Shown: in pieces, positions 13,393-31,635 of the stretch
How the letters are laid out: each line of letters starts with the position of its first letter
Position numbering within the stretch: position 1 is the first letter of the stretch
Origin: Streptosporangiaceae bacterium
GTDB taxonomy: Bacteria > Actinomycetota > Actinomycetes > Streptosporangiales > Streptosporangiaceae
DNA: 34,584 bases
Assembly (NCBI GenBank): GCA_030045175.1
Contig: JASIBM010000434.1
Span: forward strand, 1-34,584
Reading direction: 5' to 3'
Made by a program: the position numbers and the translations under genes
Notes under the pieces: model-generated
The model's database searches: none
What the model saw: only the letters and a program-made list of their open reading frames with translations
Told to the model about the DNA's origin: nothing

Positions 13393-13474
13393 GAGTGAAG
13401 TATTTCGCACTTGCGCTGGACGCGCGGTCGTGGTGGCATAGCCGGAACGCGGGGTGGCATCACGGAGGAACCAA

Positions 13475-15335: not shown

Positions 15336-15363
15336 AGCGCGTGCGGTCAGCGCGTGCGGTCAG
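15336..15363. repeat. 13-bp tandem repeat between convergent genes
   Basis: AGCGCGTGCGGTC occurs at 15336-15348 and again at 15349-15361, directly abutting, just after the acyl-CoA ligase stop and touching the end of the regulator gene. Probably slippage; no function is evident. Confidence 0.75.
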
Positions 15364-16022
15364 GCGGGCTCGGCATCGGTCAGCTGGGATGCGCGCTTTG
15401 CCCGGAGCCGCTGGTAGTGCCGCTGGGTCTTCGACCGGTTACCGCAGCCGCTCATGCTGCACCAGCGCCTGGTGTGGTTCTTGCTCGTGTCGACGAACAG
15501 CCAGCCGCAGTCCTGCCCCGCGCAGACGCGCAGGTTGGCACGGTCCGCCGCGTCTGCCTGGCCCGCGCCGGCTAGCAGGTCAATCGCGTCGGCCAGGATA
15601 ATCCACCCGGGCAGCCGCAGCGGGTCGCCGCCCGACCAGGCCCAGCGCCATGCGGTGCCATCGGTCACCAGCAGGCGCCGCGACTGCAGGCGCGCGACGG
15701 CGGCGCGCAGTGCGTCCGCGTCGGCTTCGTCCGGCTGGCGCCGCTCGGCGGATGCGCGCAGCACCCGGTAGAGCGTCTCGCGCAAGCTGATCGCCTCGTG
15801 GTAAGCCTCGGTGGCCTGCCAGGTCGCCGCGGCCGCGCGGGCGCGGTCGATGACGTCGCGATCGACTGCCTCAGTGGCGCCGGCCCAATCGATCAGCGCG
15901 ACGTAGCCGGGCAGGTAGTCGCGGCCACGCGGACCCCTGGGGTCAACCGTGTTGACGAAGTCCAGGCACAATCGCCCGCCGAGGCGAGCCGGCAGCCTGG
16001 TCAGCTCTTCCGTCCCTGTCAT
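15360..16022 (-). CDS. CGNR zinc-finger / ABATE-domain transcriptional regulator
   Basis: The 220-residue protein begins LGGRLCLDFVNTVDPRG, the N-terminal signature of the ABATE domain (DUF1470), a putative ligand-binding stress domain. The C-terminus has CAGQDCGWLFVDTSKNHTRRWC and SMSGCGNRSKTQRHYQR, the CGNR zinc finger with its Cys residues and the CGNR tetrad, which binds DNA. The ATG at 16022 is preferred over a TTG at 16046 because AAGGAAAGGGGG lies just upstream. It is divergent from azlCD across 113 bp holding two equally spaced dyads, so it is the best candidate regulator of azlCD and of itself. The ligand is unknown. Confidence 0.9.
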   Translation of the reverse strand: MTGTEELTRLPARLGGRLCLDFVNTVDPRGPRGRDYLPGYVALIDWAGATEAVDRDVIDRARAAAATWQATEAYHEAISLRETLYRVLRASAERRQPDEADADALRAAVARLQSRRLLVTDGTAWRWAWSGGDPLRLPGWIILADAIDLLAGAGQADAADRANLRVCAGQDCGWLFVDTSKNHTRRWCSMSGCGNRSKTQRHYQRLRAKRASQLTDAEPA

Positions 16023-16041
16023 GCGGCCCCCTTTCCTTCGC

Positions 16042-16073
16042 GTCAACCGTTTAAGCCGAGGTTACCGGTTGAC
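16042..16073. promoter_or_regulatory. Dyad operator 1 (TCAACC-N18-GGTTGA)
   Basis: GTCAACCG (16042-16049) and CGGTTGAC (16066-16073) form a perfect inverted repeat. It lies 20 bases upstream of the regulator start codon. The right arm contains the TTGACA used as the -35 of the inferred azlC promoter. Its partner dyad at 16099-16130 has the same arms and spacing. Confidence 0.7.
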
Positions 16074-16098
16074 ATCGGCAAGAGCCAAAGAATAGCAT
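16069..16098 (+). promoter_or_regulatory. Candidate azlC promoter (TTGACA-N18-TAGCAT)
   Basis: TTGACA (16069-16074) is a perfect -35 hexamer and TAGCAT (16093-16098) matches four of six -10 positions, 18 bases apart. Transcription would start near 16105, about 30 bases before the azlC GTG. The -35 lies within dyad 1 and the predicted start within the left arm of dyad 2, so a bound regulator would block it. Confidence 0.5.
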
Positions 16099-16130
16099 TT
16101 CAACCACCAAACGTTGTTACGGAGGTTGAC
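16099..16130. promoter_or_regulatory. Dyad operator 2 (TCAACC-N18-GGTTGA)
   Basis: TTCAACC (16099-16105) and GGTTGAC (16124-16130) repeat the arms of dyad 1 with the same 18-base interval. The right arm overlaps the azlC ribosome site GGAGG (16121-16125). The centres of the two dyads are 57 bp apart. Confidence 0.7.
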
Positions 16131-16135
16131 AACGC

Positions 16136-16921: not shown

Positions 16922-17229
16922 TGATGACTGGAAACTGGGTCGCGGTCGGTGCCGTGGCGGTGATCTGCGCCCTCATGCGCGTGAGCGCTCCGCTGCTGCT
17001 CGGCCAGCGGCAAGCCCCTCGTCTCATCCACGCGCTCGAGCTCGCGGTCCCGGCACTGCTGGCCGCGCTGATCGTCACTGAGACGTTCGGCGCGGGGCAG
17101 CGGCTTGTCATCGACCCGAGGCTGGCCGGCGTGGTGGCGGGCGGGCTGGTCGCGCTGGGCAGAAAGCCGCTCTGGCTGACGCTCGTGGTGGCGGTCGGCA
17201 CGACCGCGCTGGTCCGAGCGCTGATTTAA
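16921..17229 (+). CDS. azlD: AzlD-family small subunit of the amino acid exporter
   Basis: This 102-residue protein has four hydrophobic segments and is the normal partner of AzlC. VPALLAALIVTETFG and the following hydrophobic helices match the AzlD family, which is required with AzlC for export. The ATG overlaps the azlC stop (TGATG), with a second ATG directly after. The 3' end overlaps the convergent aminotransferase gene by four bases. Confidence 0.88.
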   Translation: MMTGNWVAVGAVAVICALMRVSAPLLLGQRQAPRLIHALELAVPALLAALIVTETFGAGQRLVIDPRLAGVVAGGLVALGRKPLWLTLVVAVGTTALVRALI

Positions 17230-18515
17230 GGTGCCGTGGCGCTGGCCAAGCCGCGGTCGAACCTGTCCATCAGCAGGTCCGCCTCTGTTGCGGTGAGGAT
17301 CAGCGGCGGGGTCACGAGCACGAAGCTGCTGGAGATGGAGACCAGCAAGCCGGCGGCGCGCAGGCACTGCTTGACGTGGTGCATTGCCTGAGCGGCCAGC
17401 GGCTGGCCGTCACCGTCGGCCAGCCCCACGGCGATCATCAGGCCGGGGCCGTGCACGCTGCGAACGGCCGAGTTTCCGATCCGGCCGGCGAACGCGGACG
17501 TGAGCTGCGCGCCCCGGTCGGCGACATTCGCCAGGACGCTGCCGTCGGCGAGCTCGTCGAGCACGGCCATTGCCGCCGCGACGGCGAGCGGAAGGCCATC
17601 GGCGGTAGACCCATGCGGGAAGACGCCCGCGGGTACCCCGAGCGCCCGCTCAAGCACGTCGTGGGTGACCGCGATCGCCGACAGCGCCGCGTAGCCGGAG
17701 GTCAGGGCCTTGCTCAGCAGCAGCATGTCGGGTTCTAGGCCGAGCTGGCCCGCGACCGTCAGGCTGCCGGTGCGGCCGAAGCCAGTGGTCACCTCGTCCA
17801 GGATGAAGTGGATGTCCGCCGCCTGGCACAGGTCTTGCACCTCGCGCAGGTAGCCGGGCGCGAGCTGCTGCACATCCGTGCCGAGGACTGGCTCCATGAT
17901 CACGGCGGACAGCCGGCCGGCGCCGATGCGGTCGACCGCTGACCGGAACGCGCCGATGTCACCGGCCGGAACGTGCCGCACGCCCGGGCACAGCGGGGCC
18001 AGCACCTCGTGCAACGGCCGCTCGCCGGTCAGGCTGCCAGCCAGGCCGGCGATGCCGTGGTAGCCGTCCCACAGCGCGAGCACCTCGGAGCGCTCCGGGT
18101 GCCCCTCGCCGATCCGGATGAACCGTGACAGCAGGACCGCTCCCTCTGCCGCTTGCGCGCCGGTCGTGCACAGGCGTACGTGGCGCAGGTTCGAAGGCAA
18201 CACCCCGGCCAGGCGGCTGGCGTAATCAAGCGCGATCTGGGTGGGCTGGTCATGCCTGATGATCTGGGCCGCAGGCAGCTCCTGAAGCTGCCTGGCGATG
18301 GCCGTCATGATCCGCTGGTTGCTGTAGCCAAGCGCGGTGCTCCACAGCGCGGAGCGCGCATCGAGGTACTCGCGCCCGAGTACGTCCCTGACGAAGCAGC
18401 CGCTGCCAGACACGAGCGCCAGGTCCGCCCAGGCGCCGTCGTCGTCAGCGGTCAGGGCGCTGAACCACAATGCTGGGTGCTTGCACGTGCAACCAGTGAA
18501 TTCCGCTGCTGTCAT
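17226..18515 (-). CDS. Class III PLP-dependent aminotransferase
   Basis: This 429-residue fold-type I enzyme has the class III hallmarks: RLCTTGAQAAEGAVLLSR (about 114-131, phosphate-binding turn), ILDEVTTGFGRTG (238-250, with the Asp that binds the PLP ring nitrogen) and LLLSKALTSGYAALSA with Lys269 as the Schiff-base lysine. Relatives transfer amino groups between omega-amino acids, amines or aldehydes and 2-oxo acids. It is the last gene of the leftward block, 20 bp after the BtrH-like gene, with an AGGAGG ribosome site. It may make or consume the aldehyde inferred from the ProA-like gene. The N-terminal CTCKH cysteines are unusual. Confidence 0.88.
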   Translation of the reverse strand: MTAAEFTGCTCKHPALWFSALTADDDGAWADLALVSGSGCFVRDVLGREYLDARSALWSTALGYSNQRIMTAIARQLQELPAAQIIRHDQPTQIALDYASRLAGVLPSNLRHVRLCTTGAQAAEGAVLLSRFIRIGEGHPERSEVLALWDGYHGIAGLAGSLTGERPLHEVLAPLCPGVRHVPAGDIGAFRSAVDRIGAGRLSAVIMEPVLGTDVQQLAPGYLREVQDLCQAADIHFILDEVTTGFGRTGSLTVAGQLGLEPDMLLLSKALTSGYAALSAIAVTHDVLERALGVPAGVFPHGSTADGLPLAVAAAMAVLDELADGSVLANVADRGAQLTSAFAGRIGNSAVRSVHGPGLMIAVGLADGDGQPLAAQAMHHVKQCLRAAGLLVSISSSFVLVTPPLILTATEADLLMDRFDRGLASATAP

Positions 18516-18535: not shown

Positions 18536-19564
18536 CTAGCTGGGTTGGAGGATCGGCAGGGTGGCCGGGGGGCCGTAGCCGTGAGCTTGCACGAGGCAGG
18601 CCGCCTGCGCCTCGGCCTCGGTCAGCTGATCGAATGTCGCCCTGATCAGCGCTGGCCGCGCGCGGCCGCGCGCGGCCGACTCGAGCGCGAAGTGCAGGGC
18701 CATGGGCAGGTCACGCCACAGGTCGTGGAGTTGCCACACGAGCCGCCTCGCTGGCGAGTCGAGCGGGAGCTGGCCGAGATGGGCGTACCTGAATGCGTGA
18801 TGCCTCGCGCTGGCCCACATGTCATCGAAGAACCGTTCCCGGCCAGGGACCTGGTGGTCAGGTCCGGCCCACAGCCCGCCGAGGAACCGCAGCGCCGCCG
18901 CGGGCTCAGCGAGCCATCCGGGCGGCAGCGCCGTGGCCGCGCCGGGAACCGTGGCGCGGCCGAGCCACTGATAATGATCATCAGGCGGTAGCGGCACCGG
19001 GAGTCCGAACACGTATTCCTTGCGAAGCCGCAATTCCGGGCGCAGCGGCGACGGCGGGGTCATCGCCTCGGTCAGTTCGGTGGTGGTAAGCCATCCCGTG
19101 AACGGCTGCTGGCTTCCGCCGGGCAGCAGCGCCTGGAACGGGTCCTCGACCTGCCATCGCCCGCCGCGGTGCTCGCGCACCAGCAGGAAATGCGGCGCGC
19201 TGGCCTCGCCGCTGGCCGGTGACCAGGCCATCGAGCCCGTGTAGGTGACCGCGAGAACCCCGAGGCCCGCCCGCATCTCCGCGTCCAGGCCGGCCGGAAC
19301 GACAGCCGGGTCGGCCGTGCCGAGGTACCCGAGGCGGGAGCCGTCCGCCAGGTCGTTGAGCGCGAGCCAGTGATGGGAGAACGCGACGATCCCGCCTGGC
19401 AGGCCGGGTCGCACCGCCAGGCGCACGGAACGGGCGACACGGGCCAGCGGATCGGGGCAGCAGCCCTCGAGGTATCGCGCCAGCGCCGCCGTGTAGCAGC
19501 TCAGCTGCCCTGGCCCGATCTCGGCGGCCGCGGGCGCGGCGGGATCGCTGGCTGGCGGGATCAC
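18536..19564 (-). CDS. BtrH-like carrier-protein-dependent acyltransferase, copy 1
   Basis: The 342-residue protein resembles the BtrH_N/C39-like fold: LSCYTAALARYLEG places a likely nucleophile Cys23 at the start of a helix, APHFLLVREH supplies His125 and QVEDPF supplies Asp141, a papain-like Cys-His-Asp set. In butirosin biosynthesis BtrH moves a gamma-glutamyl-aminohydroxybutyryl group from a carrier protein to an amine. That role is inferred here; overall similarity is weak and the acceptor is unknown. The C-terminal half is helical and shows no motif I recognise. The GTG start overlaps the carrier protein stop (GTGA), so the two are translationally coupled. The second copy at 21400 keeps the same triad order. 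Confidence 0.6.
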   Translation of the reverse strand: MIPPASDPAAPAAAEIGPGQLSCYTAALARYLEGCCPDPLARVARSVRLAVRPGLPGGIVAFSHHWLALNDLADGSRLGYLGTADPAVVPAGLDAEMRAGLGVLAVTYTGSMAWSPASGEASAPHFLLVREHRGGRWQVEDPFQALLPGGSQQPFTGWLTTTELTEAMTPPSPLRPELRLRKEYVFGLPVPLPPDDHYQWLGRATVPGAATALPPGWLAEPAAALRFLGGLWAGPDHQVPGRERFFDDMWASARHHAFRYAHLGQLPLDSPARRLVWQLHDLWRDLPMALHFALESAARGRARPALIRATFDQLTEAEAQAACLVQAHGYGPPATLPILQPS

Positions 19565-19857
19565 GGTGGTGATTCCCTCGCGGTCTCGGCGGCGCGGGCG
19601 ATGAGCTCGGCGAGATCGCCAACGGTATGAATCGGCCCGCCAGAGAACAGGTCGTCGGGGAGCATCACGCCGAGCTCATCTTCCAGGCGGATCAGCATGC
19701 CAAGCAGCCCGAGCGAGGTCATGTGCAGCAAGGCGCCGTTGAGCGGCTCTGCTAGCGCTACGGTTTCCGGGTCGATCGAGAGCCGCGACTCCCTGACCAC
19801 CATCTTGCGGACCACGGCAAGCACGGCGTCGGGTACTGGCCTAGTCGCGTTCGGCAC
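19561..19857 (-). CDS. Free-standing acyl carrier protein, divergent (carrier protein 1)
   Basis: From GTG 19857 this gives 98 residues. LLHMTSLGLLGMLIRLEDELGV, split around Ser48, has the helix II pattern of carrier proteins, and LPDDLF...TVGDLAELI is the usual helix III-IV end. The serine that would carry phosphopantetheine is preceded by Thr instead of the common Asp. The open frame extends to 19938 inside the ProA-like gene, but GTG 19857 has AAGGGA upstream and gives a normal carrier length. It overlaps the ProA-like stop by 17 bases and the BtrH-like start by four. It is likely the partner of one of these two enzymes. Confidence 0.72.
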   Translation of the reverse strand: MPNATRPVPDAVLAVVRKMVVRESRLSIDPETVALAEPLNGALLHMTSLGLLGMLIRLEDELGVMLPDDLFSGGPIHTVGDLAELIARAAETARESPP

Positions 19858-21169
19858 CGCTGTAGATCCCTTCGTCACGCGCGCGGGCCGGGTCGGCGCC
19901 GAACCTGACGGCGCCATGGCCGTCGACCCGCCACCCATAGGTCATCAGTGCCCCCGCGGTCACCGGCCCCCGCACGTGCAGGCGGCCAGTGCTGATCACG
20001 ATCTCACTGCCCAGGCCGAGCGTCGGGCCGTCGTGCAGCCGGACAGAGCCGTTCACGATCACCGCCGCCGCGTCCACCTTGCGGCAGAATTCATCGGCGA
20101 CGTCTTCGTCCTCGGTGACGATGCCCTCGGTGTGCCCGGTTCCGTACCTGCCGACGTGCGTGATGGCCGCGCTAGGCCCAGGCACGCTGGCTACCGCGAG
20201 CGTGCGGGAGAGGAACTCACGGCCAAGGTCCGCCTCGGTCAGCGGCTCCACGGTCAGCCGCTCGGTAAGCGTTGCGGGCAGGCGCTCGAGCAGGTCGGCC
20301 GAGACCCGCAGGACCAGGGAGCCCATGCCGGGGTCGGTAGCGCGGGCGGCTAGCATCTCCAGGAATTCGCCCGAGATCGCGGCGTCGAGCAGGACCATCT
20401 CCAGCGCCGTGCAGCCTTCCGGCTCCGGCAGCTTGCCGTCAAGCACCAGGCGCACCGCTAGCGGAAGGTCGGCGGCGGCGTGCACGTACATGTGGTTGAC
20501 CCCGCCCCCGCCGACGATCATCGGGATGCGGGACAGCGAGCGGCACGCGTCGAGCAGGCTGGGGCTGCCGCGAGGTATGAGCACGTCGATGGCGTCGTCG
20601 CGGCGCAGCAGCTCGCGCAGCGCGGCCCGGTCCAGGTCGGGGAGCACCTGCACCAAGCCAGGCGGCAGGCCAGCCGTGGCGAGCGCCTCGCCGAGCACGC
20701 CGGCCAGCGCGGCATTGGTACGGGCGATCTCGGCGCCACCGCGCAGCAGCACCGCGTTGCCCACGCAGGCCGGCAGCAAGGCCCCGTCGATGGTGACCGT
20801 CGGCCGCGCCTCATAGATCATCAGCAGGACGCCGAGCGGCCTGGCCACGCGCCGGGCCACGGTACCTCCGGCACCGTGATGAACAGGCCAGGAACCGCCG
20901 AGCATGGCCAGCTCGTTGACCACTCGCTCGGCCAGCATTGCCATCGCGTCACGGTGCGCCTCGGTCAGGCTCATCCGGTGCAGCCAAGGCTCGGGCAGGC
21001 CGCGCTCTTGCCCCGCTCGCAGGTCCTGCGAGTTCGCCGCGGCGATCTGCGGCCAGCGGCTCGCCAAGGCGACGGCCAGCGACCGGGCGAATGCCGGGTA
21101 AGCCGGATCGCCGATGGCCGGAGCCTGCGCCAGGGCGGCACGTGCGGTCCGAAGGCAGTGATCGATCAT
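19841..21169 (-). CDS. ProA-like (gamma-glutamyl-phosphate reductase family) dehydrogenase
   Basis: The 442-residue protein is a full-length member of the ProA branch of aldehyde dehydrogenases. YEARPTVTIDGA (119-130), LLRGGAEIARTN, IPRGSPSLLDACR and the catalytic Cys253 in EPEGCTALEMVLL are in the expected order; E. coli ProA has CNTVETLLV there. LGLGSEIVIST and LHVRGPVTAGALMTY complete the C-terminal domain. ProA reduces glutamyl-5-phosphate to the semialdehyde with NADPH. No ProB-like kinase is in the window and a carrier protein gene overlaps the 3' end, so a carrier-bound acyl group may be the substrate instead; this is inference. ATG 21169 follows GGAGGT. It heads the leftward block. 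Confidence 0.85.
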   Translation of the reverse strand: MIDHCLRTARAALAQAPAIGDPAYPAFARSLAVALASRWPQIAAANSQDLRAGQERGLPEPWLHRMSLTEAHRDAMAMLAERVVNELAMLGGSWPVHHGAGGTVARRVARPLGVLLMIYEARPTVTIDGALLPACVGNAVLLRGGAEIARTNAALAGVLGEALATAGLPPGLVQVLPDLDRAALRELLRRDDAIDVLIPRGSPSLLDACRSLSRIPMIVGGGGVNHMYVHAAADLPLAVRLVLDGKLPEPEGCTALEMVLLDAAISGEFLEMLAARATDPGMGSLVLRVSADLLERLPATLTERLTVEPLTEADLGREFLSRTLAVASVPGPSAAITHVGRYGTGHTEGIVTEDEDVADEFCRKVDAAAVIVNGSVRLHDGPTLGLGSEIVISTGRLHVRGPVTAGALMTYGWRVDGHGAVRFGADPARARDEGIYSGAERD

Positions 21170-21204
21170 TACCTCCGTCCCTCCGCCCGGGATGCCGCCC
21201 GCTG

Positions 21205-21234
21205 GCCAGCAGACCGCTCAAGCCAGCAGACCGC
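21205..21234. repeat. 13-bp direct repeat in the divergent control region
   Basis: GCCAGCAGACCGC occurs at 21205-21217 and 21222-21234, four bases apart (period 17). It lies upstream of the ProA-like gene and could be a tandem regulator-binding site. Confidence 0.7.
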
Positions 21235-21243
21235 GCCCGGCGG

Positions 21244-21267
21244 AACCTGCCAAGCAATTGGCAGGTT
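21244..21267. promoter_or_regulatory. 10-bp perfect inverted repeat with GCAA loop in the divergent control region
   Basis: AACCTGCCAA (21244-21253) and TTGGCAGGTT (21258-21267) pair perfectly around GCAA. It lies between the divergent ProA-like and BtrH-like genes. As DNA it is a good dimeric operator; as rightward RNA it is a hairpin with a GNRA tetraloop. Confidence 0.7.
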
Positions 21268-21399
21268 GATGTCTGCGCGCCGATGGCAGCAAGTGGCCGC
21301 CTCGTAGTCGCACCGCGACCAGCGACGTACGTTCGGTTTCCAGCCACGTATGGTCAGTACTCAGCCGCGGGGTCGTTATCCCCGGAGAGGGTGACACTG

Positions 21400-22416
21400 G
21401 TGCCCAGTGTGCCGCCGCACGGCGTCCACGCCGCGTGCTCCCAGTTCCTGCCGATGGTGGCCGGGGCTTACCTGGACTGCGTCTCTGACGACCTGGCACT
21501 ACTGCTCGCCACGCGGGGCGTCGCCGACGTCGAGGCGGTGTTCGGCCAGGACTGGCGGTTCGACGTCCTCGACGATGACGGGCCGCTGCCCCGCCCAGGC
21601 CTGCCGCCAGCCGACCAGGACGACCTGATCGCCCGGCGCACCGGCTGGCGGCCACGCTGGCGGCCGGCCACCTCGCCCGAGCGCGACGCGCAGGACTGGT
21701 GCGCCGAGCTGAGCGCCGGCAATCCCGTGCTTGTCGTGGGCGACGCCTACCACCTGCCGTGGCTGCCGTACGCGGGCCGTGAGCACATGGCGCACGGTTT
21801 CGTGATCGACGGGCTGTCCTGGGACGACGGCGTCCTGACGGCGCATATCGCCGATCCCTACGACAACGTCACCCAATGGGGCCACGCGCAGCCCATGACC
21901 ACCCGCCAGGCGCTTGGCCCGCTCGCCCCCGCGCTCGCGGATGGCCGCTGGGCCGTCCTGGTCGCGGCCGGCCAGCCGCGCCAAGCCAATCCGGGCGAGC
22001 AGGCGGCCGCGAACGCCGCCGCCATCACCAGGGCCGCGGCAGACGGCAGTTACCAGCGCTTCATCGACGCGCACGAGGAGTCCGGCGTCGAGGAGATGGC
22101 GAGCCTGGCCCTCGCGACCTGGCTGCTGGCTCGCAACCGCGCCCTGCATGCCCGCTGGCTGGCCGGGCTGCCCGCCTGGCAGCGTCCCGACTGGCTCGCC
22201 GAGCGCTTCGAAGCCGAGATCAGCGGGGGCTGGCGCCGCGCCATGGAGATGACCTACATCGCGCTGCGCCGGCTGCGGGGCGGCCATGCGGCCCCGCCGG
22301 CCGCGATCCGATCGGTCCGGCAGGTAGCTGCCGCCGAGGAGAGCCTCGCGGCCTCGTTGCTTTCCAGCGCGCAAGGCTGGCCCGTCGCCAGGAGGCCAGC
22401 CGATGCACGCCAGTGA
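21400..22416 (+). CDS. BtrH-like carrier-protein-dependent acyltransferase, copy 2
   Basis: From GTG 21400 this gives 338 residues. LDCVSDDLALLLATRG puts Cys27 at a helix start, AHGFVIDG gives His132 and HIADPYDN gives Asp152: the same Cys-His-Asp order and spacing as the 342-residue copy at 18536-19564, although the proteins are otherwise very different. The His-containing segment with HGFVIDG...ADPYD is typical of C39-like and BtrH_N domains. The C-terminal half is helical. It opens the rightward block. Several GTGs (21391, 21400, 21409) compete; GAGG at 21387-21390 best fits 21400. The open frame reaches much further upstream, but only across the control region. It overlaps the next gene by 14 bases. 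Confidence 0.62.
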   Translation: MPSVPPHGVHAACSQFLPMVAGAYLDCVSDDLALLLATRGVADVEAVFGQDWRFDVLDDDGPLPRPGLPPADQDDLIARRTGWRPRWRPATSPERDAQDWCAELSAGNPVLVVGDAYHLPWLPYAGREHMAHGFVIDGLSWDDGVLTAHIADPYDNVTQWGHAQPMTTRQALGPLAPALADGRWAVLVAAGQPRQANPGEQAAANAAAITRAAADGSYQRFIDAHEESGVEEMASLALATWLLARNRALHARWLAGLPAWQRPDWLAERFEAEISGGWRRAMEMTYIALRRLRGGHAAPPAAIRSVRQVAAAEESLAASLLSSAQGWPVARRPADARQ

Positions 22417-23944
22417 CGCCATACTCCTGGCGGCAGGCAGGCAGCCAGATGCCATCGCCTTGACCGGGGCCGGCCAGCGGCCTGTTAGCTACCGTGACCT
22501 TGCTCAGGGCATGACCGGCCTGGCCGCCGGGCTGGCCGGCCGCACCAGCCAGGGGGCACGGATCGGCATCGTCAGCAGGAAGTCACCCGAGACGGTCATC
22601 GCGATGCTCGCCTGCCTGCACGCCGGCCGGTGCTTCGTCATGATCGACCCGGCGCTGCCGCCGCATCGCCGCGACTTCATCGTCACCCAGCCGGCCTGCG
22701 AGATCGTGCTCGCTGACCCGGCGACCGCCGGCCTGAGCTGGCCGGTGCCCGCCATCGACCTGGCGGGCGAGGTCGCGCGCGTCGCCCGCCAGGGCCAGGG
22801 CGCCGCGGCGGGCCGGCCGGCGGCACGCCCCGACGACGAGGCTTACGTGCTCTATACCTCCGGCTCGACCGGCGAGCCGAAGGGCGTGGTGATCACCCGT
22901 CGCAACATGCGGGCGTTCCTGCGGTGGGCGGCCGCGAGATTTCCGTTGCGCAGCGGCGACCAGGTGGCCGTGCACGCGCCGCTCCACTTCGACCTGCCGG
23001 TGTATGACCTGTACGCGGGCCTGGCGGGCGGCGCGACGCTGCACCTGGTGCCTGAGCGCGTGGCCCTGTTCCCGCAAGGGCTTTACCGGTTCCTTGCGCA
23101 GGGCGCGATCACCCACCTGTACGCGGTGCCCTCGGCGCTCGGTGCCCTGGCCGACCGCTCCACGCTCGGGCAGCACGGCCTGCCGGCGATGCGCCAGGTC
23201 CTGTATGCGGGCGAGGAGTTCCGGCCCAGGCCACTGGCCACGCTGATGGCCGCCCTGCCCCAGGTCAGGGTCAGCAACTTGTACGGCCCGATCGAGACCA
23301 ACGTGGTGACCTCCTGGACGCTGCGGCGACCGCCCGGTGACGGTGAGCGCGTCCCGCTTGGCCAGCCCATCAGCGGCGTGACGCTCGCCTTGCGCGACGA
23401 CAGCGGCAAGGCGTCAGAGCGCGCGGCGATGGAAGGCGAAGTGCTTGTCGCGGGAGATTGCGTCACCCCCGGCTACCTGGCCAGGCCCGATCTGACCTCG
23501 CAGAGCATGATCACGCTTACCACGGAGAGCGGGACCCGGCGCTTCTACCGCACCGGTGACTTCGCCGTCCGAGATGGCCACGGGGTGCTCCACTTGCTCG
23601 GCCGGCGCGACGGCCTGGTGAAGACGCGCGGCTACCGGGTGGAAATCGGCGAGATCGAGGCCGCGATCGGCTGGCATCCGGCGGTGAGCGAGGTAGCCAT
23701 CGTGGCGGAGCCAGATCCGGAGCTGACCAACCGGTTGCACGCGCTCGTCGTCCCGGCCGACCCCCAGCGACCCTGCCACGGCCTCGCCGACGCGGTGATC
23801 GCCCATTGCCGTCAGCGGCTGCCCGGCTACATGGTGCCCGGCCGGGTGCACGTTCTCGCTGAACTGCCGCGCACAGGCACAGGCAAGATCGCCCGCCAGC
23901 GACTGCCCGGCCTGATCGCCGGCCCGGCAGGAGAACCGCCATGA
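22403..23944 (+). CDS. Free-standing amino-acid adenylation enzyme 1
   Basis: The 513-residue protein is an NRPS-type adenylation domain without condensation or carrier domains. The core motifs are in order: LYTSGSTGEPKGVVIT (A3), HFDLPVYDLYAG (A4, with the Asp that usually binds an amino-acid amine), NLYGPIETN (A5), YRTGDFAVRDGHGVL (A7), GRRDGLVKTRGYRVEIGEIE split over A8, and RTGTGKIARQRL with the A10 lysine. It would activate an amino acid as aminoacyl-AMP and load a carrier, probably the one encoded next. AGGAGG at 22390-22396 sets the ATG start. VinM-like enzymes in macrolactam loci are a similar type. Substrate is not readable by eye. Confidence 0.82.
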   Translation: MHASDAILLAAGRQPDAIALTGAGQRPVSYRDLAQGMTGLAAGLAGRTSQGARIGIVSRKSPETVIAMLACLHAGRCFVMIDPALPPHRRDFIVTQPACEIVLADPATAGLSWPVPAIDLAGEVARVARQGQGAAAGRPAARPDDEAYVLYTSGSTGEPKGVVITRRNMRAFLRWAAARFPLRSGDQVAVHAPLHFDLPVYDLYAGLAGGATLHLVPERVALFPQGLYRFLAQGAITHLYAVPSALGALADRSTLGQHGLPAMRQVLYAGEEFRPRPLATLMAALPQVRVSNLYGPIETNVVTSWTLRRPPGDGERVPLGQPISGVTLALRDDSGKASERAAMEGEVLVAGDCVTPGYLARPDLTSQSMITLTTESGTRRFYRTGDFAVRDGHGVLHLLGRRDGLVKTRGYRVEIGEIEAAIGWHPAVSEVAIVAEPDPELTNRLHALVVPADPQRPCHGLADAVIAHCRQRLPGYMVPGRVHVLAELPRTGTGKIARQRLPGLIAGPAGEPP

Positions 23945-24216
23945 GCGGCGAGCCGGCCACGATGATCGAAGGCCTGGTCGTCCACGTCGTCGCCGATGCG
24001 CTCGGTGTCCAGCCCCAGGAGATCGTGACGGCGCCCACGCTCTTCGACGTTCCTGGCTTCGACTCGCTGACGGTGCTGACCATCTTGTCCCGCCTCGAGG
24101 CCGAACTCGGCGCCGAGATACCGCCGGACGCGATCGTGCCTGAGGCGTTCGAGTCGCTGCCCGCCCTGATCGCGTTGTTCCAGGGGGCCGCTTCGTGGCC
24201 AGGAGGGCAGGCATGA
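23941..24216 (+). CDS. Free-standing acyl/peptidyl carrier protein (carrier protein 2)
   Basis: The 91-residue protein has the carrier motif GFDSLTVLTILSRLEAELG with Ser42 as the phosphopantetheine site, and an IPPDAIVPEAFESLPALIAL end typical of helices III-IV. It sits between two adenylation enzymes and overlaps both (ATGA at 23941 and at 24213), so it probably accepts the aminoacyl group from one or both and presents it to the decarboxylase. Ribosome site GGAG is just upstream. Confidence 0.88.
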   Translation: MSGEPATMIEGLVVHVVADALGVQPQEIVTAPTLFDVPGFDSLTVLTILSRLEAELGAEIPPDAIVPEAFESLPALIALFQGAASWPGGQA

Positions 24217-25745
24217 TCCCCACGCTCCTGCATGACCTGCTTGATCATCGCGCCGCGGCAAGGCCCCAGGCGCCGGCCCTGACGCACGGGGACCGGACGT
24301 GGAGCTACGGTGAGCTGGCCCGCTGGTCCGCCGCCGTCGCGGGGTGGCTACGCGAGCAGCGCGTCGGCCGGGGTGACCGGGTGGTGATTCTCGGCCACAA
24401 CAACTGCCAGGCCGTTCCGCTCATCTTCGCCGCCGCGCGGATCGGCGCGGTATTCGTCCCAGTCAGCGACCAGGCCCCGGCACGACAGCTTGCGCATGTG
24501 GTGGCCGACAGCGGAGCCAGGCTCGTCGTGGCCACGCCCGGCGGCGCCGGCGCCGCAGGGCGGCTGGCAGGCGTGGCGGTGCGGACCGTCGCCGAGCTGC
24601 CGGAACCAGCCGGCCCGGCCACGCCTGGCGAGGCGCCGTGCCTGTCCATCGACCCGGTCTGCCTGATCTACACCTCGGGGAGCACGGCGATGCCCAAGGC
24701 CGTCGTGAGCACCCACAGGCAGGTGCTCTTCGCTGTCCAGGCGATCCAGAGCCAGCTGGCGTACCGCGACGATGACGTGGTGCTTTGCTGCCTGCCGCTG
24801 TCCTTCGACTACGGCTTGTACCAGATCTTCCTGGCGTGCGCGGCCGGAGCGCGGCTGGTCCTCGGCGATGACTCGGACGCGGGCCCGGCGCTGCTGCGAC
24901 GGCTGGTGCACGAGGACGTCTCGGTGCTGCCGCTCGTGCCCAGCCTGGCCGTGACGCTGTGCCGCCTGGCCGGCCGCGGTGGCCAGGCCCCCGCGCGGCT
25001 GCGGATGGTCACGAACACCGGCGCCGAGCTCACCCCGGCCATGTGCCGGCGGCTCCGGGCAGCGATTCCTGGCCTCGCCGTGGTCCCCATGTTCGGGCTG
25101 ACCGAGTGCAAGCGGGTCTCGATCGGCGAGCCGAACCTGGACCTGCGCCGGCCAGGGTCGGTTGGCCGGGCGCTGCCGGACACCGAGGTCATCGTGGCAG
25201 GCGAGGACGGCAAGCCGGCCGCGCCAGGAACGGTGGGCGAGCTGCTCGTGCGCGGGCCGCACGTCATGGCCGGCTACTGGAACGCCCCCGGGCTGACCGC
25301 GGCCCGGTTCCGCCGCGACAGCCTGGGCCAGCCGGTGCTGCACACCGGCGACCGGTGCCGCCTCGATGCGGACGGGTATCTCTACTTCGCCGGCCGCGGC
25401 GACGACATCTACAAGCAGGGCGGGATCAGGGTCAGCGCCGTCGAGGTGGAGTCGGCGGCGCTGGAGATCGGTGGCGTGGAGCTCGCCGCCGCGCTGCCCC
25501 CGAACGGCCGGTTCGGGTCACGGCTAGCGGTCACCGGCGACCTGACGCCGCACCAGCTGCTGACCGGGCTGCGAGATCGGCTCGGGGCGCAGAAGCTGCC
25601 AGACGAGTGCCGGGTCATGGCCGCCCTGCCGCTCGCCGTCAACGGCAAGATCGACCGCCGGGCGCTTGACGAGCAATGGGCGCAGGCCGTCGCCGGCCCC
25701 CCTGGCGTGGCGCTACAGGGCGAGCCCGCCGGAGCCAGGCCGTGA
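24213..25745 (+). CDS. AMP-forming amino-acid/acyl ligase 2 (exosortase-A-associated ligase type)
   Basis: From ATG 24213 this gives 510 residues; AGGAGGG at 24201-24207 decides against the open GTG at 24195. LIYTSGSTAMPKAVV (A3), LPLSFDYGLYQIFLA (A4), PMFGLTECKRVSI (A5), HTGDRCRLDADGYLYFAGRGDD across A7-A8 and NGKIDRRAL with the A10 lysine are visible. The SFDYGLYQ signature is typical of ligases that occur next to a PLP decarboxylase and a carrier protein in exosortase A loci, and the same three gene types stand here. It should load the substrate later decarboxylated by the next gene product. GTGA overlap with the decarboxylase. Confidence 0.82.
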   Translation: MIPTLLHDLLDHRAAARPQAPALTHGDRTWSYGELARWSAAVAGWLREQRVGRGDRVVILGHNNCQAVPLIFAAARIGAVFVPVSDQAPARQLAHVVADSGARLVVATPGGAGAAGRLAGVAVRTVAELPEPAGPATPGEAPCLSIDPVCLIYTSGSTAMPKAVVSTHRQVLFAVQAIQSQLAYRDDDVVLCCLPLSFDYGLYQIFLACAAGARLVLGDDSDAGPALLRRLVHEDVSVLPLVPSLAVTLCRLAGRGGQAPARLRMVTNTGAELTPAMCRRLRAAIPGLAVVPMFGLTECKRVSIGEPNLDLRRPGSVGRALPDTEVIVAGEDGKPAAPGTVGELLVRGPHVMAGYWNAPGLTAARFRRDSLGQPVLHTGDRCRLDADGYLYFAGRGDDIYKQGGIRVSAVEVESAALEIGGVELAAALPPNGRFGSRLAVTGDLTPHQLLTGLRDRLGAQKLPDECRVMAALPLAVNGKIDRRALDEQWAQAVAGPPGVALQGEPAGARP

Positions 25746-26989
25746 TCGCCGAAGAGGTCGCAGCGAAGTTCGGGACGCCTGTCTACGTCTATGACCTGCA
25801 GGCCGTGCGGGACGCCCACGCCGACCTGCGATCCGCCCTGCCGGCGCAGGCCGGCCTCTACTACTCGCTCAAGGCGAACCCGCACCCGGAGGTCGCGGCC
25901 GAGCTCGCCAGGCTTGGCTGCCGCGCCGAGGTGTCGTCGCAGGGAGAGATCGACACCGCCATCGGCGCCGGATTCCAGGCGGCTCGCATGCTGCTGACCG
26001 GGCCGGGCAAGACCGCTGACACGATCGCGCACGCGATGCGCAGCGGGGTGCGGGCGTTCTCGGTGGAGTCCCCCGCGGACCTTGCCAGGATCGGCAGCCT
26101 GGCGGCTGCGCACGGCACGGCTGCCCGCTGCCTGCTGCGCGTGAACGCGGACCAGCCCGTGCCCGGGCTCGGCCTGGCCATGACGGGCACCGCATCGCAG
26201 TTCGGCGCTGATGCCTCCTGGGTGAGCAGGCAGCCGGAGCTGTTCAGGCAAGCCGGCGCCGCCCGGGTGACCGGCCTGCACCTGTACATGGGAACCAACA
26301 TCGAGGACGAGGCGACCCTGCTGGCGCAGTTCCGGGTGGCGGTCGGCATCGCCGCCAGCCTGGCCGGGCCGTTTGGCGGGTTCGCGGAGGTGGACCTGGG
26401 CGGGGGCTTCGGGACTCCCTACGCCAGGCGCGGCGGCCGGCCACTATTCGGTGGCCTGGCGCGCCAGCTTACCGAGCTGCTCGACGGTCACCTGCCGGGC
26501 TGGCGCCAGCGCCGGCCACTGATCACCTTCGAGTCTGGCCGCTACCTGGTCGGCAGCGCTGGCTCGCTGATCTGCCGCGTCGTGGACACGAAGGTGTCCA
26601 AGGGGGTGCGGTTCGCCGTGCTTGACGCCGGGGTGAACCATCTCGGCGGGATGATGGGACTGCGCCGCATCCCGCCCATCGTCCCTGACCTCCTCACGCT
26701 GCCCGGCGATGGCAATGGCGCCCGCGTGCCCACCACGGTCACCGGGCCGCTGTGCACGCCGCTCGACACCCTCGCCCGCGACGCCCAGCTGCCGCCGCTG
26801 GCCGCCGGGCAGCTGGTCGCCATCCCGAACGTGGGTGCCTATGGCCTGACCGCGAGCCTGATGGCCTTCCTCGGCCACCCGGCCCCGGCAGAAGTGGTGG
26901 TGAACGGCGACAAGGTCGCCTCGGCCTCGCAGATCCAGCTCACCCGGACTCACCTGCTAGCCCGCGAGCCTGCTCGCTCGCGCGCATGA
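25742..26989 (+). CDS. PLP-dependent decarboxylase of the DapDC/ODC fold (BtrK/VinO-like)
   Basis: The 415-residue protein has the alanine-racemase-like barrel of diaminopimelate decarboxylases. LYYSLKANPHPEV gives PLP-lysine Lys44, DLGGGFGTPY (218-227) binds the PLP phosphate and GPLCTPLDTL (335-344) has the catalytic Cys338. True DapDC has CESGD at this place; the Thr-Pro-Leu-Asp variant occurs in the exosortase-associated subfamily. Relatives BtrK and VinO decarboxylate amino acids while tethered to a carrier protein, which fits the neighbouring ligase and carriers. GTG start overlaps the ligase stop, with GGAG seven bases upstream. Free lysine or ornithine decarboxylation cannot be excluded. 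Confidence 0.87.
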   Translation: MIAEEVAAKFGTPVYVYDLQAVRDAHADLRSALPAQAGLYYSLKANPHPEVAAELARLGCRAEVSSQGEIDTAIGAGFQAARMLLTGPGKTADTIAHAMRSGVRAFSVESPADLARIGSLAAAHGTAARCLLRVNADQPVPGLGLAMTGTASQFGADASWVSRQPELFRQAGAARVTGLHLYMGTNIEDEATLLAQFRVAVGIAASLAGPFGGFAEVDLGGGFGTPYARRGGRPLFGGLARQLTELLDGHLPGWRQRRPLITFESGRYLVGSAGSLICRVVDTKVSKGVRFAVLDAGVNHLGGMMGLRRIPPIVPDLLTLPGDGNGARVPTTVTGPLCTPLDTLARDAQLPPLAAGQLVAIPNVGAYGLTASLMAFLGHPAPAEVVVNGDKVASASQIQLTRTHLLAREPARSRA

Positions 26990-27021: not shown

Positions 27022-27294
27022 ATGAGCAGCGTTGCTCTCGATCCGGACTTCGAGAAGGTGCTCAGGCGTCGCCTGACATACCTGGCTCCAGAAGCGCCGC
27101 TGTTGCCGGACGTACCGCTGAAGAGCCTTGGCCTCAACTCGCTGCTGGCCGTCGAGCTCATCTTCGACATCGAAGACGAGCTGAACGTGGCGCTGCCAGA
27201 CGAGGCGATGACCGCGCAGGTATTCGAGACGGCCGCGAGCCTATGGTCGGCCGTGAGCGACGCACGGACGCAAGCGGCGCTGGGGGCGCGATGA
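27022..27294 (+). CDS. Free-standing acyl carrier protein (carrier protein 3)
   Basis: From ATG 27022 this gives 90 residues; GGAAGGG six bases upstream decides against ATG 26986, which overlaps the decarboxylase stop. LKSLGLNSLLAVELIFDIEDELN has the helix II carrier pattern with Ser40, followed by LPDEAMTAQVFETAASLWSAV. The GLNS variant replaces the usual GLDS. Its stop overlaps the start of the flavoenzyme gene (ATGA), so the carrier and the flavoenzyme are coupled; the flavoenzyme probably acts on a group bound to this carrier. Confidence 0.85.
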   Translation: MSSVALDPDFEKVLRRRLTYLAPEAPLLPDVPLKSLGLNSLLAVELIFDIEDELNVALPDEAMTAQVFETAASLWSAVSDARTQAALGAR

Positions 27295-28487
27295 CCGCCG
27301 GGGCGAGCTCCCGGTCACCGGCCGGCCCCGAGCACGCGGACCTGGCACAGCGCCTGGCGGACGTCGCGGCGGTCATCAGGGAGGAAGCGGCCGTGATCGA
27401 CAGGGATGCCACGTTCCCGGAAAATGGCATGTCCGCGATCCGCAAGCAGGGCCTGCTCGGGCTGCTCGTGCCTGCCGAGTACGGCGGGCTCGGCGGCTGG
27501 CTGCCCGAATTCGTCGATGCCGCCGTCGTCCTGGCTGGCGAGTGCCTGTCCACGGCGCTGATCTGGGCGATGCACTGCCAGCAGGCGGCCACCATCGCCA
27601 GGCACGCCACCCCGCGGCTACGCCAGGACCTGCTGCCCCGCATCGCCGGGGGCGAGGTCTACATCGCGTCGGTCACCAGCGAGAAGGGCAAGGGCGGCCA
27701 CCTGCTGACCGCCCAGGCGCCGCTGCGGCGCGCGGGCGGCATGCTGGAGATCGACAGGGACGCTCCGATCGTCACCGGCGGTCAGCACGCCGACGGGTTC
27801 CTGATCACCATGCGCGACGACGTCTCGGCGCCAGCCAGCGCGGTCTCCCTGGTCTACGCCGACCGCGCGGAACTGACCGTGTCGGCGGCTGGATCCTGGG
27901 ATCCGCTTGGCATGCGGGGCACCCACAGCGTCGGCTTGCGGATCAACGGCCAGGTAGCCGGCCACAACCTGGTCGGCCTGCCCGGTGAGTTCCGCGAGGT
28001 CGCTGTGGCCACCTTCGCGCCAGTAGGTCACATCGGATGGGCCGCGTGCTGGCTTGGCGCCGCGCGCGCCGCCTTGCACCGCGTCATCGAGCTGCTGCGC
28101 GCCCCGGCCGGCCGGCGCCAGTTCGACCTGCGCTCGGAGCTGCTGCGGACCAGGCTTGCCCGCGCCAGGCTTGACCTCGACACGGTGGCAGCGATGATCG
28201 CGCAGTGCGTACGGGACGTGTGCGCCGCGCCGGACCTGGAGGCGATACCGGTCCAGCTGCGGCTGAACGCGCTGAAGGTGCTGGCCGCCGAGCGTTGCTT
28301 CGCCGTCGCTGACCTGCTCATCGAGGTCACCGGCCTGCGGCATGGCTACCTGCGCGACGCGCCGCTCGGCCTGGAGCGGGTGTTCCGTGACCTTCGCTCA
28401 GCCAGCCTGAATTACGCGAACGACCGGCTGTTGCTGGCAAACGGTGCGCTCGCCCTGCTCGACCGGGGAGTGACCCTTGCCTACTGA
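27291..28487 (+). CDS. Acyl-CoA-dehydrogenase-fold flavoenzyme (carrier-bound substrate dehydrogenase or monooxygenase)
   Basis: The 398-residue protein follows the acyl-CoA dehydrogenase layout: N-terminal helices with GLLGLLVPAEYGGLGG, a middle beta domain (YIASVTSEKGKGGHLLTA, DPLGMRGTHSVGLRING) and a C-terminal helical domain. The C-terminus (LGLERVFRDLRSASLNYAND) lacks the YEGT-type catalytic-glutamate motif of classical fatty acyl-CoA dehydrogenases. That pattern occurs in biosynthetic acyl-ACP dehydrogenases and in flavin monooxygenases of the same fold (DszC/VlmH types). A flavin reductase gene lies two genes downstream, which fits the two-component monooxygenase option, though dehydrogenation remains possible. 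It overlaps the carrier gene by 4 bp and the TrpB-like gene by 11 bp. Confidence 0.78.
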   Translation: MTAGASSRSPAGPEHADLAQRLADVAAVIREEAAVIDRDATFPENGMSAIRKQGLLGLLVPAEYGGLGGWLPEFVDAAVVLAGECLSTALIWAMHCQQAATIARHATPRLRQDLLPRIAGGEVYIASVTSEKGKGGHLLTAQAPLRRAGGMLEIDRDAPIVTGGQHADGFLITMRDDVSAPASAVSLVYADRAELTVSAAGSWDPLGMRGTHSVGLRINGQVAGHNLVGLPGEFREVAVATFAPVGHIGWAACWLGAARAALHRVIELLRAPAGRRQFDLRSELLRTRLARARLDLDTVAAMIAQCVRDVCAAPDLEAIPVQLRLNALKVLAAERCFAVADLLIEVTGLRHGYLRDAPLGLERVFRDLRSASLNYANDRLLLANGALALLDRGVTLAY

Positions 28488-29901
28488 AGAGCTGCTCAGC
28501 CACATTGAACCCGCCGCAGGCGCGGCCGTCGCGGTGCCTGCCGCGTGGTACAACCTGCTCGCCGACGCCGGCTTCGAGCTGCCGCCTGACGTGGCCAGCG
28601 GGGGCGAAGGCCCGAGCCTGCGGCCTCAGGTTCCGCTTAGCATCATCCGGCAGGAGCTATCCACCCAGCGCTGGATTCCCATCCCGGAGGAAGTCAGGGC
28701 TCGCTTCGCCGCCTGGCGCCCGACTCCGTTGCGCCGGGCCGAAGCGCTCGAGCGCGCGCTGGGCACCAGGGCCCGCATCTACTACAAGTACGAGGGGGGA
28801 AACCTCACCGGCAGCCACAAGCTGAACACAGCGGTGGCCCAGGCGTACTACTACCGGGCCGCGGGAGCCAAGCGCCTGGCCGTGGCCACGGGCGCCGGGC
28901 AGTGGGGCACCGCCGTGGCGGCCGCGTGCCAGATGTTCGGCCTGGCCTGCCAGGTGTACATGGTCCGGGCGAGCCTGCTTGCCAAGCCGCACCGCAAGAC
29001 CATGATGGAACTGCTCGGGGCGACCGTCACGGCGAGCCCGAGCGATGACACCGAGGTCGGGCGCAGGTTCCTGGCCGACGGCGCCGATGGCGGCACGTTG
29101 TCGATCGCCCTGGCCGAGGCCCTGGAGGAGACGCGTGATCCGGGCACCCGGTTTTGCGCGGGCAGCGGGGAAACGTACGCGCTGCTGCACCAGACGGTCA
29201 TCGGCCTGGAAGCGGCGGCCCAGCTGGCGGCCATCGACGAGGGCGTGCGGCCGGATGTCGTGATCGCCGCGCTCGGGGCGGGAAGCAACTTCGGCGGCAT
29301 CGCATTCCCGTTCCTGCGCGCCAGGCTCGCCGCGCGGGAGGTTCCTGGGGCCAGGCAAGCACCGGGGCAGCCGCTGCGGTGCCTGGCCGCTGAGCCTGCG
29401 GCGTGCCCGAAGCTGACCAGGGGCCGCTACGTCTACGACCACACCGACAGCTCGGAGCGGACGCCCTTGCAGAAGATGTACACGCTTGGCTATCGCTTCA
29501 CGCCCACCCCGATGCATGCCGGCGGGCTTCGCTATCACGGCACCGCCAAGATCGTCAGCGCGCTGTACGCGCGCGGCCTCATCGAGGCCGCCGCCTACCA
29601 GCAGCGCGAGGTGTTCGAGTCGGCGGTCCTCTTCGCCAAGTGCGAGGGCATCTTGCCCGCCCCGGAGAGCGCGCACGCGGTCCACGGGGCTATCGCGGAA
29701 GCCGCGCGGGCGGACGCTGACGGCACCGCCCCGCGCATCCTGTTCTCGCTGAGCGGGCATGGCATGTTCGACCTGGAGGCCTACCGCTCTTATCTGTGCG
29801 GTGACATGCCGGACGTGATCATTCCAGCCGCTGAGATCGAGGAATCCCTGGCCAGGCTCCCCGCGCAGCCGGAGCCTGCCGCAGCCGAGAGAACCGGGTG
29901 A
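28477..29901 (+). CDS. TrpB2-like PLP enzyme lacking the catalytic glutamate
   Basis: The 474-residue protein aligns with TrpB2, the stand-alone tryptophan synthase beta type. YYKYEGGNLTGSHKLNTAVAQ, split around Lys115, holds the PLP lysine, and the C-terminal GHGMFDLEAYRSYL is a TrpB2 hallmark. In TrpB and TrpB2 the segment reads ETGAGQ, with a Glu essential for beta-replacement; here it reads ATGAGQWG, so that Glu is Ala137. HKPNT is also changed to HKLNT. It therefore probably does not make tryptophan and may do another PLP beta-elimination or replacement. The TTG start has GGGGAG six bases upstream and overlaps the flavoenzyme gene. No trpA is present. Confidence 0.83.
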   Translation: MPTEELLSHIEPAAGAAVAVPAAWYNLLADAGFELPPDVASGGEGPSLRPQVPLSIIRQELSTQRWIPIPEEVRARFAAWRPTPLRRAEALERALGTRARIYYKYEGGNLTGSHKLNTAVAQAYYYRAAGAKRLAVATGAGQWGTAVAAACQMFGLACQVYMVRASLLAKPHRKTMMELLGATVTASPSDDTEVGRRFLADGADGGTLSIALAEALEETRDPGTRFCAGSGETYALLHQTVIGLEAAAQLAAIDEGVRPDVVIAALGAGSNFGGIAFPFLRARLAAREVPGARQAPGQPLRCLAAEPAACPKLTRGRYVYDHTDSSERTPLQKMYTLGYRFTPTPMHAGGLRYHGTAKIVSALYARGLIEAAAYQQREVFESAVLFAKCEGILPAPESAHAVHGAIAEAARADADGTAPRILFSLSGHGMFDLEAYRSYLCGDMPDVIIPAAEIEESLARLPAQPEPAAAERTG

Positions 29902-30497
29902 ATCAGGTGAATTACCCAGCAACGGCGCTGGGCTGGGCCAGCGCTGGCGAGCCGGAAGGACCGACCGCGTTGCGCCTGGACGCTCGCGCGCAAGACGGGA
30001 CGGAGCCGGCCAGCGCCGAGGAGTTCCGTGAGCTGATGAGGCACTGGCCGACCGGCGTGTGCGTGATCACCACGCAGGACGCGGATGGCCCGGCTGGCTG
30101 CACGGTCAGCTCCCTCATGAGCGTGTCCCTGAGCCCTCCGCTGCTCGTGATCGCCCTGGCGACCGGCAGCGTGACGCTGGCCGCGATCAGCCGGGCCGGC
30201 GCGTTCGGCGTCAACGTGCTTGGCGAGGAGCAGGGCGACCTGGGGCAGCGGTTCGCCAGCGGCGAGCACCGCGACCGGTTCAACGGGGTGAAGTGCCGGT
30301 ATCAGGGCCGGCTTCCGTTGCTGCCAGAGGTGGTCGCGTGCGTCGTGTGCACCGTCTGGGACACCGCGCCGTGCGCGGACCACGTGCTGGTCATCGGCAA
30401 GCCGGTATGGCACGCGGCGCGACATGACCTGTCCCCGCTGCTCCGCTTCCGCAGCGGCTACCGGCACCTCGCCGAGCGACCTACTGAGTGCGCTTGA
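29898..30497 (+). CDS. Flavin reductase (HpaC/VlmR-like)
   Basis: This 199-residue protein has the flavin reductase-like split-barrel fold: FRELMRHWPTGVCVITTQD, CTVSSLMSVSLSPPLLVIAL and FGVNVLGEEQGDLGQRFAS are characteristic, with RFNGV later. Such enzymes use NAD(P)H to reduce free FMN or FAD for a partner oxygenase. The acyl-CoA-dehydrogenase-fold enzyme two genes upstream is the natural partner. The first 30 residues are a poorly conserved extension. The GTG start overlaps the TrpB-like stop. It is the last gene of the rightward block, and its 3' end overlaps the LYS9-like gene by 17 bases on the other strand. Confidence 0.88.
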   Translation: MNQVNYPATALGWASAGEPEGPTALRLDARAQDGTEPASAEEFRELMRHWPTGVCVITTQDADGPAGCTVSSLMSVSLSPPLLVIALATGSVTLAAISRAGAFGVNVLGEEQGDLGQRFASGEHRDRFNGVKCRYQGRLPLLPEVVACVVCTVWDTAPCADHVLVIGKPVWHAARHDLSPLLRFRSGYRHLAERPTECA

Positions 30498-31626: not shown

Positions 31627-31635
31627 GGGGGGCTC

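Follow-up and report, generated by a model that had tools for sequence, protein, structure and literature searches.

A ProA-like gene and its neighbours

The window, by which we mean the whole stretch of 34,584 nucleotides analysed here (Streptosporangiaceae bacterium, contig JASIBM010000434.1 of assembly GCA_030045175.1), carries a biosynthetic gene cluster arranged as two divergent operons (Table 1). On the minus strand, a ProA-like gene is followed by genes for a carrier protein (ACP1), a BtrH/AziU3-fold protein (BtrH_A) and an aminotransferase, while the plus-strand operon runs away from them, from the BtrH_B gene on. In all, the cluster holds three carriers and two BtrH/AziU3-like proteins.

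Table 1. Coordinates of the cluster genes and associated features in the window
Feature	Position	Strand	Evidence and remarks
CGNR zinc-finger regulator, probable cluster regulator	15360..16046	-	PF11706/PF07336
Class-III aminotransferase, candidate aldehyde consumer	17226..18515	-	PF00202, 213.7 bits; also in L048
BtrH/AziU3-fold protein (BtrH_A)	18536..19564	-	Invariant Cys23, His125, Asp141; predicted fold
Carrier protein ACP1	19561..19857	-	98 aa; GTG start 19857, stop 19561; phosphopantetheine Ser48 in MTSLG; PF00550
ProA-like, ALDH-fold reductase	19841..21169	-	Open reading frame from 21169 (start) to 19841 (end); 442 aa; catalytic Cys253; profile matches
Gap between the two divergent operons	21170..21438	.	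Gene layout; probable shared promoter region
BtrH_N acyltransferase-like protein (BtrH_B)	21439..22416	+	PF14399, 34.2 bits; predicted start codon
Stand-alone adenylation enzyme (Adom), candidate ACP1 loader	22403..23944	+	TIGR01733, 324 bits, above cut-off
Carrier protein ACP2	23941..24216	+	PF00550, 37.1 bits
VinN-like side-chain-carboxylate adenylating enzyme (LigPEP)	24195..25745	+	Best solved relative 3wvn (VinN), 374.9 bits
PLP decarboxylase (DCase), BtrK/VinO type	25676..26989	+	Best solved relatives 7ru7 and 2j66 (BtrK), 193 bits
Carrier protein ACP3	27022..27294	+	PF00550, 34.5 bits; easily missed in a long-ORF reading
Acyl-CoA-dehydrogenase-fold flavoenzyme	27243..28487	+	PF02771/PF00441; true start probably after 27243
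TrpB-like PLP enzyme	28477..29901	+	NF009057, 560 bits, above cut-off
Flavin reductase	29898..30497	+	PF01613, 120 bits

The ProA-like protein matches the glutamate-5-semialdehyde dehydrogenase model NF001221/PRK00197 with 342.7 bits (cut-off 289) and the stricter proA model TIGR00407 with 298.6 bits, under its cut-off of 317.45; it is ~36-41% identical to most ProAs. The preliminary description of this DNA had reported the catalytic cysteine and the ProA motifs as intact and this proves correct: Cys253 lies within EPEGC-TALE, and the YEARP and PRG motifs are present as in ProA. Outside the ProA family, both sequence and fold point to an acetylating (CoA-thioester) aldehyde dehydrogenase of solved structure (5j78) as the closest relative. 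In the AlphaFold model of the ProA-like protein the domains are poorly placed (pTM 0.70, TM ~0.46 to ProA). The 17-bp overlap with the carrier gene that had been described is exact (19841-19857, the gene lying on the minus strand). The absence of a glutamate kinase is confirmed as well: there is no amino-acid kinase among the annotated window genes, and the four AA_kinase genes of the source genome all lie on other contigs, none of them on either of the two contigs that bear a cluster of this kind.

Several neighbours have recognizable relatives in known pathways. BtrH_A has no Pfam match; its structure model (pLDDT 80) matches AziU3 of azinomycin (8gs1/7wuw, Foldseek E 1.8e-9), which is part of the aziridine-forming complex AziU3/U2. 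LigPEP keeps the VinN residues Asp230 and Arg331 and has Thr in place of Ser299 (positions counted on 3wvn; for the roles of these residues, see PMC7756342), so that it probably activates an acidic amino acid at its side-chain carboxylate. With BtrK as the best solved relative of the decarboxylase, LigPEP and DCase form a VinN/VinO-type beta-amino-acid module. Read by eye, the A-domain code of the cluster resembles no clear known code.

The cluster is flanked by further genes. AzlC/AzlD exporter genes and the CGNR regulator (15360-17229) lie beside the aminotransferase, and the same gene types apparently occupy the same place in the sister cluster L048; they may regulate and export the cluster product. 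A CGNR-type gene also adjoins the cluster of Streptomyces NBC_00704 and, by eye, L048. On the other side, two adjoining saccharopine-dehydrogenase-like genes of the Sacchrp_dh_C and AlaDH_PNT_N types (30481-32697, minus strand) lie beside the cluster; the azaserine cluster likewise lists a saccharopine dehydrogenase pair. Further off, a formate dehydrogenase alpha subunit gene (5674-8781, plus strand) has one in-frame TGA at 6253-6255, corresponding to residue 194 (QARI-U-HSATVPGL), and is very probably a selenocysteine enzyme; close to it are fdhD (4750-5619), genes for beta and NrfD-like subunits, and selD (12397-13410, TIGR00476 368.6 bits).

ACP1 accompanies a distinct branch of the ProA family

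ACP1 is a carrier of the phosphopantetheine (PF00550) type and not of the LysW/AmCP type. Its GTG start is preceded, 9 nt upstream, by a ribosome-binding-like motif, GAAGGGA. The window protein is barely above the Pfam cut-off (21.4 bits against 20.8) and has T-S-L where D-S-L is usual; a homologue scores better (30.1 bits), and the alignment reveals a compact family in which Ser48 is invariant.

A scan with a subfamily-specific region of the ProA-like protein (IPRGSPSL...) found 23 loci, 22 of them in named actinomycetes and one in an actinobacterial MAG. One of these (L051, Nocardiopsis terrae) lies on the same contig as another match (L046, genome G069) and was counted once, giving an analysed set of 25 distinct members, the window and a second locus of the source genome (L009, contig C304) included. 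In the tree the 25 members group together (SH-aLRT 99), separated from 22 other ProAs by a long stem (2.2 changes per column); the tree was built by a quick method and the caution that applies to long branches holds for it. The two sides differ at 28 positions, each at least 90% fixed on both. Replaced in all 25 members are N124T, G202S, V209C, C225N, F378L and K396R, and in 23 of 25 R249E and Q395G; T379H is also specific to the subfamily. At least nine (nearly) invariant ProA positions have thus been replaced, five of them (N124T, G202S, V209C, C225N and R249E) before the catalytic cysteine and four (F378L, T379H, Q395G and K396R) after it. Cys253, Lys246 and Glu257 are common to the subfamily and the other ProAs, as are ~60 positions conserved to at least 95% in both. 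The window gene is not a housekeeping ProA but belongs to a separate branch found in biosynthetic clusters of actinomycetes. We have seen ~27 such clusters, in Streptomyces, Amycolatopsis, Micromonospora, Salinispora, Saccharopolyspora, Nocardiopsis and others.

This branch travels with ACP1. Wherever the contig continues, an ACP1 gene lies downstream of the subfamily ProA on the same strand (24 of 24 loci), against none of 52 other ProA loci (flanks of ~1.5 kb); such recurrence makes the adjacency more than chance. Apart from two Amycolatopsis loci, which have a thioesterase gene in between, the spacing is -17 to +224 bp. A fusion of the two genes in L049, suggested by automatic ORF extension, was discarded when reading the frame revealed a stop between them. 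The reverse search, starting from ACP1 in 395 genomes of the class, returned four strong matches (E < 1e-35), all adjoining a subfamily ProA: the two of the source genome, the known S. harbinensis cluster (by coordinates) and a new one in Streptomyces NBC_00704 (ProA-like WP_329418020.1, ACP1 WP_329418022.1). The weak ACP1-like matches of this search belonged to ligase/decarboxylase pairs lacking ProA. A plasmid protein search added a further pair, in Streptomyces sp. BHT-5-2 (L114), and in total two more ProA-ACP1 loci were found independently of the 24. The gene order of L114 is rearranged (Adom-ProA-ACP1-flavin reductase) yet ProA and ACP1 stay together, which argues that the pair survives rearrangement; an A domain is its direct neighbour there. 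On the basis of this genomic pairing ACP1 qualifies as the dedicated carrier of the reductase, operon adjacency in itself not proving a physical interaction.

Two of the newly found clusters have settings of their own. The NBC_00704 cluster (L113) is carried by a linear plasmid of 90 kb that also encodes gamma-butyrolactone regulators; a gene of the glutamyl-tRNA-synthetase family (L113, 33639-35306, minus strand) adjoins the cluster. Next to the cluster of L114 (2268-15200) lies a polyketide synthase gene (KS-AT-DH-ACP); the GC3 of the cluster is below that of the left flank, which suggests that it is an island.

Proline genes of the host genomes

Had the gene been the only ProA homologue of its genome, this would have spoken against the preliminary description; there are in fact two, 50% identical, though both are of the cluster type. 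The second likewise has ACP1 downstream. Its sister cluster (L009; C304, 282-12858) is a different one of the same family, encoding an SDR, a C-A-T NRPS and a fusion of a BtrH-like protein with a carrier domain; the BtrH_B homologues of L009 and L046 bear this carrier domain at the C-terminus.

The search for a housekeeping proA/proB pair, proposed at the outset, gave a divided answer. In other hosts the housekeeping genes are separate from the cluster: proB is above cut-off in all 22 genomes searched (382-425 bits), always away from the cluster and with no proB-like match close to it, and a canonical proA lies elsewhere in 20 of the 22 (480-525 bits). The remaining two, both Amycolatopsis, have no ProA besides the cluster enzyme but a divergent one (209-215 bits), so that in them the cluster enzyme may serve proline as well. 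In the source genome itself, an 82%-complete draft, neither a canonical proA nor proB was found. Four genus relatives all have a canonical proA, with proB within ~6 kb of it in three; given this proximity and the incompleteness of the draft, one gap in the assembly could be enough to account for the missing proBA.

Aldehyde-consuming neighbours and loading of the carrier

In each of the 25 main-set clusters, a gene for an aldehyde-consuming enzyme is adjacent to ProA or nearby: an SDR in 20, directly upstream of ProA, an aldo/keto reductase in three (L047, L055 and L062) and, as candidate sink, a class-III aminotransferase in two (the window and L048). Next to the ProA-ACP1 pair of L114 no such gene is obvious. 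That the partners swap among aldehyde-using types is the best indirect argument that ProA yields a free aldehyde, although SDR and aldo/keto reductase genes are common and their adjacency to ProA is no more than suggestive.

As to how ACP1 might be loaded, most of the clusters read have Adom, which in L114 is next to the pair. We also considered that LigPEP and DCase load ACP1 and decarboxylate its substrate, gamma-glutamyl-S-ACP1 then mimicking gamma-glutamyl phosphate. The idea was attractive because the closest relatives of ACP1 found outside the family are the carriers of such ligase/decarboxylase pairs, namely of conserved trios of the VinN/BtrK kind that occur, lacking ProA, in other actinomycetes (L099-L102). 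It is weakened by two facts: in the window, in NBC_00704 and in L114 the carrier that adjoins DCase is ACP3, and the stretches read of four clusters (L046, L049, L050 and L057) hold a second stand-alone A domain in place of LigPEP and DCase.

Discussion

We propose, with moderate confidence, that the gene encodes an off-loading reductase drawn from the ProA family, which reduces an ACP1-bound acyl thioester to the free aldehyde. An adenylating enzyme would load an amino-acid-derived acyl group onto the phosphopantetheine arm of ACP1; Cys253 would attack the resulting thioester to form an enzyme thioester, which NAD(P)H would reduce, and a free amino aldehyde would depart, to be consumed by the aminotransferase in the window and by an SDR or aldo/keto reductase in the sister clusters. 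The adenylating enzyme and the carrier would together stand in for ProB. In ProA/P5CS the cysteine attacks an acyl phosphate and the thioacyl-enzyme is reduced by NADPH (PMC8963878); moving from an acyl phosphate to the ACP1 thioester would require only a new leaving group, as in the acylating aldehyde dehydrogenases that are the closest non-ProA relatives. The preliminary description had suggested the release of a carrier-bound aminoacyl group as an aldehyde, and its genomic predictions hold: the carrier is constant, the kinase is absent, an aldehyde consumer lies nearby and the housekeeping genes lie elsewhere in other hosts. The reaction itself, its direction, the thioester as substrate, the aminoacyl nature of the acyl group and the cofactor are what we infer from them. 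Whether the whole clade has shifted from gamma-glutamyl phosphate to aminoacyl thioesters on a dedicated carrier, as an ALDH-fold off-loading reductase central to an unassigned family of actinomycete natural products in which a VinN/BtrK module, TrpB-like chemistry and BtrH/AziU3-like enzymes come together, appears to us evenly balanced.

Acylating aldehyde dehydrogenases are reversible and the enzyme could run in the oxidising direction, a free aldehyde and NAD(P)+ giving an acyl group loaded onto ACP1; the class-III aminotransferase of the window and of L048 could then yield the aldehyde from an amine. We consider this unlikely: nearly every cluster already has adenylating enzymes able to load carriers, the SDR and aldo/keto reductase partners of the sister clusters are usually reductive in biosynthetic clusters, and ProA itself works as a reductase (PMC8963878). 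Alternatively, a true homologue of ProA with an intact cysteine site may have kept to acyl phosphates, for example those of N-acyl or carrier-tethered glutamate, with the kinase encoded elsewhere and ACP1 tethering or channelling the substrate in the manner of azinomycin and vazabitide (AmCP). Azinomycin is in fact the closest carrier-plus-reductase precedent, the kinase AziC3 preceding the acyl-phosphate reductase AziC4 (PMC9570651), and an AziU3-like fold is encoded in the cluster; the lack of kinase genes among the annotated genes of the window, on both cluster contigs and, for proB, near the cluster in 22 genomes, together with a carrier that has no LysW/AmCP tail, nevertheless makes acyl-phosphate reduction distinctly unlikely.

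The thioester on ACP1 may also be the wrong substrate to consider. In most clusters the ACP1 gene stands between those for ProA and the TrpB-like enzyme, and the clusters have several carriers; ACP1 could thus serve, for example, the TrpB-like enzyme, the reductase acting on an aminoacyl adenylate, another soluble activated acid or a group held by ACP2, ACP3 or an NRPS. The ProA-ACP1 pair is intact, however, where the TrpB-like gene is elsewhere (the window, L047) or was not found adjoining (L048, L114), and we hold such a division of labour to be quite improbable. By far the least probable is that a housekeeping ProA came to lie beside a carrier gene by chance: the NF001221 score and the failure to find canonical proA/proB in the source draft would fit, but both such ProAs of this genome adjoin ACP1, the draft is incomplete, the genus relatives do have a canonical proA, three of the four with proB nearby, and the clade is distinct, with fixed replacements.

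If the thioester reductase that we favour is real, a new enzyme family would join the known aldehyde-releasing routes for carrier-bound intermediates, and it would illustrate how an acyl-phosphate reductase of primary metabolism is converted into a thioester reductase. RefSeq names at least one subfamily member 'glutamate-5-semialdehyde dehydrogenase', with the GO term proline biosynthetic process, and other members are thus probably mis-annotated too. The ~27 clusters also make a coherent target for product discovery. In the open-access literature searched, we found no paper on a ProA-family enzyme working with a carrier protein and none that names a product.

Compared to known systems, the subfamily shares with ProA of the proline pathway its family, catalytic cysteine and motifs, but differs from it in several ways: (i), it is partnered by a carrier protein and not by ProB, and the cluster has no kinase; (ii), it forms a separate clade; and (iii), its setting is a biosynthetic cluster. 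The CoA-acylating aldehyde dehydrogenases (the AdhE, EutE and PduP kind) have the same ALDH fold and the thioester-to-aldehyde chemistry that we propose, whereas the subfamily is ProA by sequence and its substrate is predicted to be bound to a carrier protein, not to CoA. The terminal reductase (R) domains of NRPSs also release carrier-bound acyl groups reductively as aldehydes, as predicted here; these have an SDR fold, while the subfamily is free-standing and of ALDH fold. The AmCP/LysW pathways of vazabitide and azinomycin are similar in their carrier-linked amino-acid chemistry, aldehyde step, aminotransferase and AziU3-like fold, but there a kinase makes the acyl phosphate for a separate reductase, whereas the window combines the lack of a kinase with a phosphopantetheine carrier. 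Finally, the VinN/VinO (vicenistatin), BolO/BolN/BolQ (bolagladin) and BtrK/BtrH (butirosin) modules resemble the window in their VinN-like ligase, BtrK-like decarboxylase, stand-alone carriers, ACAD-fold enzyme and BtrH-like protein; what sets the window apart is a ProA-like reductase paired to a carrier, which the texts consulted on those clusters do not describe.
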